Source: Candidatus Tumulicola sp.
Lineage (GTDB): Bacteria; Vulcanimicrobiota; Vulcanimicrobiia; Eremiobacterales; Eremiobacteraceae
Assembly (NCBI GenBank): GCA_035601835.1
Contig: DATNNM010000011.1
Coordinates: 434,001-498,000, forward strand
Length of the DNA stretch: 64,000 nucleotides
Direction of reading: 5' to 3'
Both the position numbers and the translations under genes were made by a program. The notes under the pieces are model-generated. The model did no database searches, was not told the DNA's origin, and saw only the letters and a list, made by a program, of their open reading frames with translations. Positions 15,749 through 21,018 of this stretch are shown here, in pieces; within the stretch, counting starts at the first letter, position 1, and each line of letters opens with the position of its first letter.

Positions 15749-15781
15749 AGGTCGCCCGCTTTGGTCCGCGAAGCGTCTCGT

Positions 15782-18577
15782 ATGGCCACGAAGATCGACA
15801 GTTTCAAGAGCAAAGCCACGCTTGATGTCGGCGGAAAGAAGTCGACCTACTACCGCTTAGGCGCGCTGGCTGAGGCCAACGTCGGACATGTCGAAAAGCT
15901 GCCGTATTCGCTCAAGATCCTGCTCGAAAACCTGCTGCGCTTCGAAGACGGGCGCTCGGTCACCAAAGAGCACATCGTGACGCTTGCTTCGTGGGATCCG
16001 AAAGCCCCGCCGAACCGCGAGATCGCGTTCCGCCCCGCGCGCGTGCTGCTGCAAGATTTCACCGGCGTGCCGTGCGTGGTCGACCTCGCCGCCATGCGCG
16101 ACGCCATGGCCGACCTCGGCGGCGATCCGAACCGGATCAATCCGCTGCAAGACGTCGAGTTGGTCATCGATCACTCCGTCCAAGTCGATGCTTACGGAAA
16201 CGCCGGCGCTTTCAAGATCAACGCCGACATGGAGTTCTCGCGCAACAAAGAACGCTACCAGCTCCTCAAATGGGCCCAAAAAGCGCTGCACCGTTTCAGA
16301 GCGCTGCCTCCGGACACCGGCATCGTCCATCAAGTCAACCTCGAGTACCTTGCGCGCGTGGTATTCCGCGACACGACGAGCGGAGAGAGCGAGGCATATC
16401 CGGACATGCTGGTCGGCACCGATTCGCATACCACCATGATCAACGGCCTCGGCGTGCTCGGCTTGGGCGTCGGCGGCATCGAGGCAGAGGCCGCGATGCT
16501 CGGCCAACCCGTCTCGATGCTGATCCCGGAAGTGATCGGCTTCCGCATCCGGGGCAAACTGCCCGAGGGATCCACCGCGACCGATCTCGTGCTCACCGTC
16601 GCCGAGATGTTGCGCAAGAAGGGCGTGGTCGAGAAATTTGTCGAGTTCTTCGGCGCGGGTCTCTCGAACTTGAGCCTCGCGGACCGCGCGACCATCGGCA
16701 ACATGTCGCCCGAGTTCGGCTGCATGATCTCGATCTTCCCGATCGACGAAGAGACGCTCACCTACTTGCGCCTCACCGGCCGCAGTGACGAACAGATCGC
16801 ACTGGTTCGCGCCTATGCGAAGGCGCAAGGCCTGTTCCGATCGGATGACTCCGCCGAGCCGCTCTTCACCGACGTGCTCGATCTCGATCTCGCCAGCGTC
16901 GAGCCTAGCCTAGCCGGTCCGCGCCGTCCGCAAGACCGCGTGCCGCTCAAGACCGCCAAGCAAGCGTTTGAAGAAGCCATGCGCGCGTTCGCGGAAGGGC
17001 GCCCCGCGCCGAAGGCACCCGCGCCGGCGGTGGCGGATTGGGCCAGCGAAGGCGGCAGCGTGGCGACCGTCGCGACGCTCGCGCCGATCGACCGCCGTCG
17101 AGCGACCTACGCGAGCCCCAACGGCGACGTCGAGATCTGCGATGGCGCGGTGGTCATCGCCGCCATCACGAGCTGCACGAACACCTCGAACCCGAGCGTG
17201 ATGGTCGGCGCCGGCCTGCTGGCGAAGAAAGCGGTCGAGCGCGGGCTCACGAGCAAGCCGTGGGTCAAGACAAGCCTCGCGCCCGGTTCCAAAGTCGTCA
17301 CCGAGTATCTCGCCAAGGCCGGCCTCACGCCGTATCTGGAGCGGCTCGGGTTCTTCCTCGTCGGCTACGGCTGCACCACGTGCATCGGCAACAGCGGCCC
17401 ACTCGACGAACCCATCGCCAACACCGTCACCGAGCACGATCTCGTGGTGTGTTCGGTGCTGTCCGGCAACCGCAATTTCGAGGGGCGCATCCACCCGCAA
17501 GTCCGCGCGAACTACTTGGCGTCGCCGCCGCTCGTCGTCGCGTACGCGCTCGCCGGCACCATGGAGATCGATCTCCTCAACGAGCCGCTCGGCGAAGGCA
17601 GCGACGGCAAGCCCGTGTTCTTGCACGACATCTGGCCGTCCAACGACGAGATCAAGAAGACCGTAGGCGAGTGCGTCGCCGAGGCGATGTTCCGCCGCGA
17701 ATATGCCGACGCGTTCGGCGGCGACGAACGCTGGTGCTCGTTGCCCGTGCCGCCGGGCGAGCGCTTTGCGTGGGATCCGAAATCCACATACGTGCACAAG
17801 CCGCCGTTCTTCGACGGCATCACGGCAAAGCCGCCGCCGCTGCGCGACATCACGGGCGCGCGCGTGCTCGCCATATTCGGCGACAGTTTGACGACCGATC
17901 ACATCTCGCCGGCGGGCAACATCGGCAAGAACACGCCGGCCGGCAAGTATCTGATCTCCCAAGGCGTTGACCCGCTGGATTTCAACTCGTACGGCGCGCG
18001 GCGCGGCAATCACGAAGTGATGGTGCGCGGCACGTTCGCCAACGTGCGGCTGCGCAACAAGCTCGCGCCAGGCACGGAGGGCGGCGTGACACGCCACTTG
18101 CCCGACGGCAAAGAGATGTCGATCTATGACGCGGCCATGCAGTACGCGATCGAAGGTACGCCGCTGGTCGTTCTCGCCGGCAAGGAATACGGCACCGGCT
18201 CCTCGCGGGACTGGGCCGCCAAGGGTCCGCGCCTGCTCGGCGTCCGCGCGGCGATCGCGGAGAGTTTTGAGCGCATCCATCGCAGCAACCTCATCGGCAT
18301 GGGAGTGCTCCCGCTCCAATTCCAACGCGGAGAGTCTGCGGCATCGCTCGGCCTCAGCGGCGAAGAGACCTACGATATCGAGGGCATCGCGGGCGGCGTG
18401 GGCGTCGGGAAACAATTGACCGTGCGAGCCGTTGGGCCGGATGGCGCTGCAAGAACTTTTACCGTAAGGGCGCGCATCGACACGCCGGACGAGGCGGAAT
18501 ACTACAAGCACGACGGCATCTTGCAGTACGTATTGCGCCAACTTCACGCACGCGGGGCACAAAACAATGGCGCATGA
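15782..18577 (+). CDS. acnA: Aconitate hydratase, AcnA/IRP type
   Basis: Interconverts citrate and isocitrate with a [4Fe-4S] cluster. The 931-residue length fits bacterial AcnA. Cluster ligands are visible in [11 protein letters not shown] and [12 protein letters not shown], and the swivelling C-terminal domain has [12 protein letters not shown] and [31 protein letters not shown] marks the N-terminal part. The ATG at 15782 is the first in-frame ATG; a TTG at 15761 is possible. The gene follows isocitrate dehydrogenase and overlaps the next small gene by 11 bp, so these form a TCA unit. Confidence 0.96.
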
Positions 18578-18854
18578 GGAGCTCAAAGCAAAGCTGGCAG
18601 CCCTGCTGCATCAGACGTCTGAGGATCATCACGTCGCGTTCAAGGCGACCGACGGCGTGGATGCGGACTGGTCGATCTGGTATTCGGGGCGGCTCTTGGA
18701 GCAGGGCTTTGACAAGAGCTTGCAAGCCACGATCATCAAGAGCGACCTCATCTACTTGCTCGTACTGGCGGACAAGACGCAGACCTTCGAAGCTCCGGGC
18801 GCCACGTGGGAGAACTGGTACGCCGACTTCTTCGTCCGCCGCTATTTGAAATAG
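18567..18854 (+). CDS. Small conserved protein of unknown function downstream of aconitase
   Basis: A 95-residue soluble protein rich in aromatic residues ([31 protein letters not shown]). It starts at ATG 18567, overlapping the end of aconitase by 11 bp. No known motif or signal peptide. The coupling suggests joint expression with the TCA enzymes; function unknown. Confidence 0.75.
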
Positions 18855-18856
18855 TA

Positions 18857-18885
18857 AGCCGTGCGCCCTGATGGAGCGCACGGCT
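18857..18885 (+). terminator. Hairpin after the aconitase unit, possible terminator
   Basis: A perfect 10-bp stem AGCCGTGCGC / GCGCACGGCT (18857-18866 with 18876-18885) with a 9-nt loop, right after the stop of the small gene. No U-tract follows, so it may only protect the 3' end or act with Rho. Confidence 0.45.
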
Positions 18886-18979
18886 TCGGATGTCAGGCCG
18901 CTTCGGTTCACGATCGACTCCTCGGACGCGAGTCCATCAGATACGAACCGGCAAACCTGACGTATAAATATCGTACCCT

Positions 18980-19012
18980 AAGGCTTGTCCCGACCCCAAA
19001 GGCTCGTCCCGA
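18980..19012. repeat. 14-bp direct repeat upstream of the recombinase gene
   Basis: AAGGCTTGTCCCGA (18980-18993) and AAGGCTCGTCCCGA (18999-19012) differ at one base and are 19 bp apart start to start. They lie in the 252-bp gene-free gap between the aconitase unit and the recombinase gene. They could be regulator sites or leftovers of an insertion. Confidence 0.5.
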
Positions 19013-19036: not shown

Positions 19037-19076
19037 TATGATATATTGACGTCAATGTATCTTATGATATATTGAC
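19037..19076 (+). promoter_or_regulatory. AT-rich operator-like region: 14-bp direct repeat and 12-bp palindrome
   Basis: TATGATATATTGAC occurs at 19037-19050 and again at 19063-19076, 26 bp apart. The first copy runs into GTCAAT so that ATTGACGTCAAT at 19045-19056 is a perfect palindrome. The second copy contains the -35 box of the promoter of the recombinase-Hsp20 unit. The arrangement is what one expects for a repressor or activator binding site; the regulator is unknown. It is much more AT-rich than the surroundings. Confidence 0.6.
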
Positions 19077-19100
19077 TTTTTGCCATATGCTCTCTATAGT
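19072..19100 (+). promoter_or_regulatory. Sigma-70-like promoter of the recombinase-Hsp20 unit
   Basis: TTGACT (19072-19077), a 17-bp spacer and TATAGT (19095-19100). Transcription would begin about 19107, which is the A of the ATG of the recombinase gene, so a leaderless or nearly leaderless mRNA is possible. Confidence 0.6.
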
Positions 19101-19106
19101 TGAGGT

Positions 19107-19970
19107 ATGGCAGCAAAGACCAGTCGCAGCAGAGGCCTTCCGTTGGACGATCTGATCGACCAGTTTCTCGATCACGAACGCACTGACGGTAAAGCCGATA
19201 CGACTGTCCGCAATTATCGGGCCGATCTCTTCGGACTGATGCGCGAAGCCGGAGAGATGATCTCGGGCAACGCGTTTGCGGGCCTCGTGCGCCAGCACCT
19301 CGACTCGCTCGAGGTCGCAGAGCGCTCGTGGAACCGCCACCTCAGCACGCTTCGCCGCTTTTGCGACTTCCTCGTAGAGCAGGGCGAGCTCGCGGTCAAT
19401 CCGTTGGCGTCGCGCAGCGGCGTGAAAGTCGAAGCGAGCGTGCCGAAAGCGGTCGACGAAAAGGATGTCCGTAAACTGTTCCAACGCATCGACCGCTCGC
19501 GCGATCGAGCGCTGATCACGCTGCTGTGGCAGAACGGGCTCCGCGTAGGCGAAGCGCTCAACCTCAAGGTTGAGGACGTGGACCTGCGCGCGGGCACGCT
19601 TCGCATCAGCGACGAGTCAGACAGTCGCATGGTCCGCCTCACCGCGGCCGCATGCGATTGCCTGCGAGACTATCTGGCGACGCGCCACTCGGATGAGACC
19701 GATTGCCTCTTCGTCGCCAACGGGGGACGGGCGCTCTCATACGCGGGCGCGCACCGGCTCTTCCGGCAGTACGCCGGGGACTCGGATCTCACCATGCAGC
19801 AGTTGCGCGCAGGCGCAGCGGCAGCGGCGTTCTTCGCAGGCGCTACGTTATGGCAAGTCCAGGACATGCTCGGCCACGCGCATGCCGCCAGCACGGCGCG
19901 TTACCACCTCAAGCTGACCAAAAAAGAGAACAAACCAACCGCAAGTAAGAAAAAGGAGAAATCAAAATGA
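19107..19970 (+). CDS. Tyrosine recombinase/integrase-like protein with degenerate active site
   Basis: A 287-residue XerC/D-like protein: an N-terminal SAM-like DNA-binding domain (about residues 11-100, with NYRADLFGLM and WNRHLSTLRRFCDFLV) and a C-terminal catalytic domain. Arg146 (NGLRVGEAL), Arg234, His257 (MLGHAHA) and the nucleophile Tyr266 (TARYHL) are present. The His of the HxxR box is Gln231 (QQLRAG), and the Lys of the beta-hairpin (around SDSRMVRL) is not seen. Activity may be lost or altered. A Lys-rich tail ends the protein. ATG with GAGG very close upstream. Its end overlaps the Hsp20 gene by 4 bp, an unusual partner. No attachment sites or phage genes were seen. Confidence 0.82.
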   Translation: MAAKTSRSRGLPLDDLIDQFLDHERTDGKADTTVRNYRADLFGLMREAGEMISGNAFAGLVRQHLDSLEVAERSWNRHLSTLRRFCDFLVEQGELAVNPLASRSGVKVEASVPKAVDEKDVRKLFQRIDRSRDRALITLLWQNGLRVGEALNLKVEDVDLRAGTLRISDESDSRMVRLTAAACDCLRDYLATRHSDETDCLFVANGGRALSYAGAHRLFRQYAGDSDLTMQQLRAGAAAAAFFAGATLWQVQDMLGHAHAASTARYHLKLTKKENKPTASKKKEKSK

Positions 19971-20476
19971 CACTACCTCGCATCAACGCCACCGGTCGGA
20001 TCCAAGCAGGCGACGGCGCCCAGCTGGAGACGATCTTCGATACCGATCTCGTCCGGTACAACCCGCTCGCCGAACTGGCGAACTTCCGCCGCAACGTCAA
20101 CACGCTGCTCGACAGCGTGGTCCGACCGGGCGCCATGGGCTTCACCGCCACGTGGGGACCGGCAGTGGACGTCTTCGAAAAGGACGGCAAGTACCACGTC
20201 GAGTTCGCAGTGCCCGGCCTGAGGAAAGACGACATCGAGATCGAAGTCAACGACAACAGTCTGACCGTCTCAGGCAAGACCAAAGAAGACAAGGCCGATG
20301 AATCGTCGCGCTATCACTATCGCGAGATTCGCCGCACCGAGTTCTCGCGCACGATCCAATTCCCGCAAGAGATCAATGCGGAGCAGGTGACCGCCAGCTA
20401 CGACAACGGCATCCTGAAGCTCTCAGTGCAGTCCGCCAAGCCGGCGGCCGCCAAGAAGGTCACGATCAAGGGCTAA
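19967..20476 (+). CDS. Small heat shock protein, Hsp20/alpha-crystallin family
   Basis: A 169-residue ATP-independent holdase. The alpha-crystallin domain spans about residues 60-160: VDVFEKDGKYHVEFAVPGLRKDD(I) with the PG-L motif, YHYREIRRTEFSRTIQFP, and NGILKLSV near the end; a short AAKKVTIKG tail follows. The start ATG overlaps the recombinase stop (ATGA) and has AAGGAG at 8 nt. No CIRCE-type inverted repeat is seen; expression likely depends on the AT-rich promoter region before the recombinase gene. Confidence 0.95.
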   Translation: MTLPRINATGRIQAGDGAQLETIFDTDLVRYNPLAELANFRRNVNTLLDSVVRPGAMGFTATWGPAVDVFEKDGKYHVEFAVPGLRKDDIEIEVNDNSLTVSGKTKEDKADESSRYHYREIRRTEFSRTIQFPQEINAEQVTASYDNGILKLSVQSAKPAAAKKVTIKG

Positions 20477-20494
20477 GTCCGCCAAGCCCACACG

Positions 20495-20526
20495 AGCGGC
20501 GGGTCGCATGATCCGCCGCTTTTTTC
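20495..20526 (+). terminator. Intrinsic terminator after hsp20
   Basis: Stem AGCGGCGG / CCGCCGCT (20495-20502 with 20513-20520), 10-nt loop, followed by TTTTTC. It closes the recombinase-Hsp20 unit 19 bp after its last stop. Confidence 0.85.
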
Positions 20527-20601: not shown

Positions 20602-21018
20602 ATGGAACTAAGCCGCGCCCGCGTTGCGGCGCTCCCTGTGCTGATCATTTCGCTGATGTGGGCCGGCGGGCAAGCCCAGGCATGCGCCGTGAATCGCGGT
20701 GACCACATCATGCTTGCGTCGCTCGCGCTCGATCCCGACGTTTTCGTCTGGGATTCCGCGCAAAGGCTCATCAGCTATGCGGGCGGCGATTTCAACACGG
20801 CGATGGTGCTCAGGCACACCGTGTTGGCAAAGCCGGGGACGACGGCGACCGCCACGGAGTGCAGGGACAGGGTGGCGCGCCCGAAATTCTCGACGAAGAA
20901 CGTCGACATCGTTGGCGTAAAGGTCACCAGCGGCAAGATCCGAGGGCGGTTCGGCTGGGTCCTCGCGGAGGACGTACGTCGGATGGATGGTAAACCGGTG
21001 ACCGCGGTTCTACCGTAG
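20602..21018 (+). CDS. Secreted protein of unknown function
   Basis: A 138-residue protein with a signal peptide (ARVAALPVLIISLMWAGGQAQA, cleavage after AQA or QAC) and two or three Cys in the mature part. The rest is mostly beta-like (FVWDSAQRLISYAGGDFNTA, GRFGWVLAEDVRRMDG). No family recognised. It lies 35 bp upstream of two dipeptide-type permease genes; a role as their binding protein is unlikely because it is too short. Confidence 0.6.
   Translation: MELSRARVAALPVLIISLMWAGGQAQACAVNRGDHIMLASLALDPDVFVWDSAQRLISYAGGDFNTAMVLRHTVLAKPGTTATATECRDRVARPKFSTKNVDIVGVKVTSGKIRGRFGWVLAEDVRRMDGKPVTAVLP

Follow-up and report, generated by a model that had tools for sequence, protein, structure and literature searches.

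MrpR (YopR), the master repressor of the Bacillus subtilis prophage SPbeta, has the fold of a tyrosine recombinase and has lost catalysis, with Lys and Tyr kept but the first Arg and the His residues gone; it binds repeated promoter elements and represses transcription, and point mutants are heat-sensitive (PMC10516654). IntS of prophage KplE1 represses its own promoter via sites that overlap it (PMC2951348). RheA of Streptomyces acts locally, repressing one small heat-shock gene, hsp18, and regulating its own expression (PMC11754652).

The locus described here pairs a homolog of Xer-type tyrosine recombinases (hereafter TR) with a gene for a small heat-shock protein, Hsp20. It lies in a 64-kb stretch of DNA, the window, which corresponds to positions 434001–498000 of contig C11 in the 2.57-Mb assembly G000. 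MrpR is the nearest precedent. Both proteins have the recombinase fold (by model in the case of TR) and lack catalytic residues, from which loss of catalysis is judged in the case of TR, but MrpR is a prophage regulator with many sites, whereas TR is chromosomal, has one candidate site cluster, and is predicted to be coupled to hsp20. The MrpR structure was absent from the 50 best fold matches of TR and from its sequence matches, and the resemblance is therefore probably convergent. With IntS, an active prophage integrase whose promoter overlaps attL, TR shares the proposed repression of its own promoter through sites overlapping it (PMC2951348). The RheA–hsp18 design is the one proposed for TR–hsp20, but the rheA and hsp18 genes are divergent and thermosensing has been shown experimentally (PMC11754652). 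XerA, XerD, and XerC (4a8e, 5hxy, 1a0p) have both domains and the overall fold in common with TR and are its best sequence and fold matches. Unlike them, TR scores far below the family cut-offs, has neither the HxxR His nor the Lys of the hairpin, and ends in a basic tail where another C-terminal segment is usual; its genome has ordinary Xer-type genes at other places. Finally, heat-shock genes regulated by HrcA carry a CIRCE element upstream, whereas a search allowing up to 3 mismatches found none in the window.

The operon and its recombinase homolog

The TR gene (19107–19970, + strand), assigned from its open reading frame, Pfam matches, and residues, encodes a candidate regulator of 287 amino acids, and hsp20 (19967–20476, + strand; Pfam HSP20, 4e-24) follows it. 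The hsp20 start overlaps the TR stop (ATGA) and an AAGGAG sequence lies upstream at ~19953, features that make a single transcript with translational coupling of the two genes likely. A sequence scan placed an intrinsic-terminator-like hairpin at 20494–20521 (+ strand), which would close the operon. The original prediction had described this overlap followed by a terminator, and the ORF coordinates and the stem agree; the interval it considered (19037–20476) ended just short of the hairpin and, at the other side, of a pair of 18-nt repeats discussed below. Upstream of the unit are aconitase (15761–18577) and a 95-aa ORF (18567–18854) that overlaps the aconitase stop, found no match in Pfam and NCBIfam searches, and was not seen 3' of aconitase in the other genomes of the family. 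An 11-bp inverted repeat (AAGCCGTGCGC/GCGCACGGCTT) at 18856–18886 (+ strand) is the probable end of this upstream unit. Between the terminator-like hairpin and a set of ABC-transporter permeases lies a 138-aa ORF (20602–21018), whose product falls outside known families and is conserved at this place, after aconitase or hsp20 and before the permease, in most of the family.

TR belongs to the tyrosine recombinase superfamily, with Pfam matches to Phage_integrase (PF00589; 7e-23) and Phage_int_SAM_1 (1.5e-6). Against NCBIfam models, it scored 127.5 bits for XerD, 127 bits for XerC, and 124 bits for XerA, far under the respective curated cut-offs of 329.6, 335.15, and 220, and is outside those equivalogs. 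In an alignment of TR and 38 further Xer and integrase proteins, most of them from the same phylum, Arg146, Arg234, His257, and Tyr266 were found to be retained, Gln231 occupied the position of the HxxR His, and the beta2–beta3 hairpin had no Lys, where nearly all of the 38 have GKG. The alignment thus bears out the residues first listed as kept (both Arg, the second-box His, and Tyr266) and as replaced or missing (the HxxR His and the hairpin Lys). Both GKG and HxxR are present in the phylum's ordinary Xer proteins. Because some active recombinases carry a residue other than His in HxxR, the argument for loss of activity draws mainly on the missing Lys; TR has probably lost recombination chemistry.

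An AlphaFold2 model of TR, calculated from a five-row alignment (mean pLDDT 80.9, pTM 0.56), reduces the hairpin to two strands and a two-residue turn. The best Foldseek match of the model was XerA (8.5e-14), at a TM score of ~0.5 with a large rmsd, and the placement of domains in the model is for this reason not trustworthy; the best sequence matches among solved structures include archaeal Xer 4a8e and XerD 1a0p. These matches, which are nearest to Xer/XerA proteins, do not support the initial description of TR as a phage-type integrase. Phage integrases match TR at about 25–35%, and a search of viral contigs with a two-row TR profile returned no relative. Phage and plasmid matches were general integrases and Xer proteins at <60% identity, and a phage origin of the TR lineage was rejected on the strength of these searches.

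Two further observations concern Xer-type proteins. Contig C14 of the same assembly (L049, 4667–7310) encodes two Xer-type recombinases separated by a 215-aa ORF. The canonical residues are complete in the second, whereas in the first LRR replaces LRH and LRHE replaces LGHE. In addition, chain 14 of PDB 9i5v carries the name RaiA in its deposition but matches a Xer-type protein along ~280 residues, and is possibly a Xer–RaiA fusion, another case of a recombinase linked to a stress protein, or a mislabeled entry.

Among the 149 phylum genomes compared, which may be incomplete, a clear TR ortholog was present in one other genome, G008 (E 4.5e-63 with the window protein), a member of the family but of another genus; the next-best matches in the phylum, at 3e-26, were ordinary Xer proteins. 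Gene order in G008 is the same (aconitase, TR, hsp20, ABC permease), again with an ATGA overlap, and identity to the window proteins is 44–46% for TR and 52–54% for Hsp20. The pairing of recombinase and Hsp20, proposed as something to look for in related genomes, therefore recurs within the phylum set in G008 only. No further pair appeared at 28 other hsp20 loci with flanks of ~1.5 kb, and one scan of genome contigs for orthologs outside the phylum returned Xer relatives at 24–34% only. In the G008 protein, too, the hairpin has no Lys and HxxR no His, but the latter position is Arg rather than Gln, so that the substitution proposed for checking in relatives recurs as a loss of His and not as the same residue. 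An intact His in isolated integrases of relatives, which would have counted against the original prediction, was seen in distant ordinary Xer proteins (~30% identity) and not in the G008 ortholog. Both TRs end in a short basic tail rather than the usual post-Tyr segment.

Between the window and G008, TR identity at codon positions 1, 2, and 3 was 0.56, 0.65, and 0.38, respectively, and 0.34 at four-fold sites. Silent sites are near saturation and the protein is not; by this comparison TR is under purifying selection and not decaying, and a pseudogene was rejected on this codon-position conservation. In G011 and G013, the corresponding slot holds Hsp20 but no TR, and the flanking housekeeping genes keep their order in relatives that lack TR. 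In G005 (L122), a 34-residue C-terminal hsp20 fragment is left in the slot after aconitase, which suggests that hsp20 was lost there. In an aconitase tree, G000 grouped with G004, G011, and G013, and G008 with G007, so G000 and G008 are not sisters in this tree, and the TR–hsp20 pair either is ancient with repeated losses or moved from one lineage to another. An hsp20 protein tree did not decide between inheritance and transfer of the pair. In a recombinase tree, the two TRs shared a long branch that lay apart from the phylum's ordinary Xer proteins, with long branches making this placing unsure.

Half-sites in the promoter region

The sequence between 19030 and 19106 is AT-rich (34% GC compared with 64% in the window), and <0.1% of 77-bp windows are equally so. 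A 22-bp palindrome at 19040–19061 consists of two 11-bp half-sites (GATATATTGAC / GTCAATGTATC) with one mismatched pair and contains a perfect 12-bp core, ATTGACGTCAAT, at 19045–19056. A third half-site identical to the first, at 19066–19076 (+ strand), extends into the proximal promoter's -35 box. The three share the consensus GATAYATTGAC, beginning at 19040, lying inverted with one change at 19051–19061, and beginning again at 19066. Two 14-bp direct repeats occupy 19037–19050 and 19063–19076, the second of which includes the third half-site. The palindrome and direct repeats are present in the promoter, as the original prediction stated. None of 500 dinucleotide shuffles of the region reached the direct repeat, a strong result, and about 3% reached the palindrome; taken alone, the palindrome signal is modest (3–4%).

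Two sigma-70-like promoters on the + strand are predicted by consensus match only: TTGACT-17-TATAGT at 19072–19100, and TTGACG-16-TATATT, with an extended -10, at 19046–19073 inside the half-site cluster. The -10 of the first ends 6 nt before the ATG, and mRNA from this proximal promoter may therefore be leaderless. Upstream of the palindrome, two 18-nt direct repeats of CCCWAAGGCTYGTCCCGA, 19 nt apart (18976–19012, + strand), could be the site of another regulator; elsewhere in the assembly their core has one single one-mismatch copy only.

Exact copies of GATATATTGAC occur in the 2.57-Mb assembly at 19040 and 19066 only, with the one-mismatch inverted copy at 19051. Five single one-mismatch copies elsewhere, most of them within reading frames, follow no pattern, and the assembly contains no second half-site cluster. 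The G008 promoter has, at 1403–1441 of L010, the half-sites ATTATCTTGAC and ATTATATTGAC, separated by 17 nt, together with ATCAAGATAAT in inverted orientation, and the 14-bp form GATATNATNTTGAC occurs exactly in the G008 genome at this cluster only. Tested against shuffles, the G008 direct repeats gave 0.002, and the segment common to both promoters was reached by 5/300 shuffles. Aligned on the palindrome center, ~56 and 61 nt upstream of the start codon in the window and G008, respectively, the window reads GATATATTGA-CG-TCAATGTATC and G008 reads ATTATATTGA-CA-TCAAGATAAT; the order of the half-sites is unlike in the two promoters. In each promoter, the TTGAC within a half-site could serve as a -35 box: the scan gave TTGACT-17-TATAGT for the window, and TTGACA-17-TACCCT was picked out by eye in G008, where a promoter scan of the locus did not return it. 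The hsp20 promoters in the same slot of the TR-less G011 and G013 genomes lack the motif. With two orthologs only among 149 genomes, co-occurrence of motif and TR amounts to two presences and two informative absences.

Candidate autoregulation and its alternatives

From these sequence features, we think it fairly likely that TR is a catalytically retired recombinase that serves as a dedicated autoregulator, most likely a repressor, of the hsp20 operon. As the first product of the operon, with DNA-binding architecture kept and a catalytic residue missing, TR would be the simplest candidate to bind 19040–19076. Bound to the three half-sites, which overlap both predicted promoters, it would repress its own gene together with the translationally coupled hsp20 gene, and stress, perhaps heat acting on TR itself, would lift this repression. 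Release by heat is the weakest step, suggested by the function of Hsp20 and by analogy only. Autorepression with stress release would give a RheA-type hsp20 switch on an MrpR-type fold; RheA is not known to be a recombinase homolog. Regulation of its own promoter by TR, as originally suggested, gains support in several respects. First, a second genus has the same operon and the same losses. Second, the motif is confined to the locus. Third, it is absent where hsp20 occurs without TR. Binding and regulation themselves we infer.

The alternative that survives best, in our estimate an unlikely one, is that some other regulator uses the motif as its operator and that TR merely shares the hsp20 transcript while serving another role, for example as an accessory subunit of an active Xer protein. 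Xer proteins often act in pairs, the assembly has the two ordinary Xer-type genes on C14, and TR binding to the motif is an inferred element of our proposal. A global regulator, however, should have more sites, whereas exact half-sites are found at the TR–hsp20 locus only; moreover, the TR-less hsp20 promoters of close relatives lack the motif, and nothing like CIRCE was found in the window.

Slightly less probable is that TR is still, or was recently, a working site-specific recombinase, with the half-site cluster as its own attachment or crossover site and repression as a side effect, as in IntS. Tyr266, His257, and both Arg residues are retained, the 11-bp arms are similar in length to Xer-type arms, and negatively autoregulating integrase genes beside att sites are common (PMC2951348). 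Against this reading, both orthologs lack the hairpin Lys, and the model shortens the hairpin to a turn of two residues; the palindrome half-sites are 0–2 bp apart, compared with the usual recombinase central region of 6–8 bp between arms; the neighbors are housekeeping genes in the same order in TR-less relatives; and the assembly has no second motif cluster to act as a partner.

We give very little credence to a decaying integrase remnant that lies upstream of hsp20 by chance, as lost catalytic residues and presence in two genomes only might suggest, since both frames are intact at 44% identity, with synonymous sites saturated and second positions conserved, and gene order and overlap are the same in two genera. 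Equally improbable is a mobile island carrying hsp20 as cargo with its integrase, in the manner of stress-tolerance islands: recombinases frequently neighbor stress islands, the distribution is patchy, and GC3 of TR is slightly lower (0.76 vs. 0.83–0.85), but TR-less Hsp20 fills the same slot in G011 and G013 (a fragment in G005), and the unit consists of two genes between conserved housekeeping neighbors, with no other mobile genes or att repeats linked to it.

Returning to TR as an autoregulator, we propose only tentatively that a host-owned, retired Xer protein acts as a dedicated stress-responsive repressor, possibly a thermosensor, of a small heat-shock operon, and so represents a new class of heat-shock regulator. 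If true, this recombinase-derived regulator would be an example outside phages, on a chromosome and linked to protein-quality control, whose candidate operator is compact, and would serve as a warning that genes named XerC, XerD, or integrase beside stress genes may be regulators.
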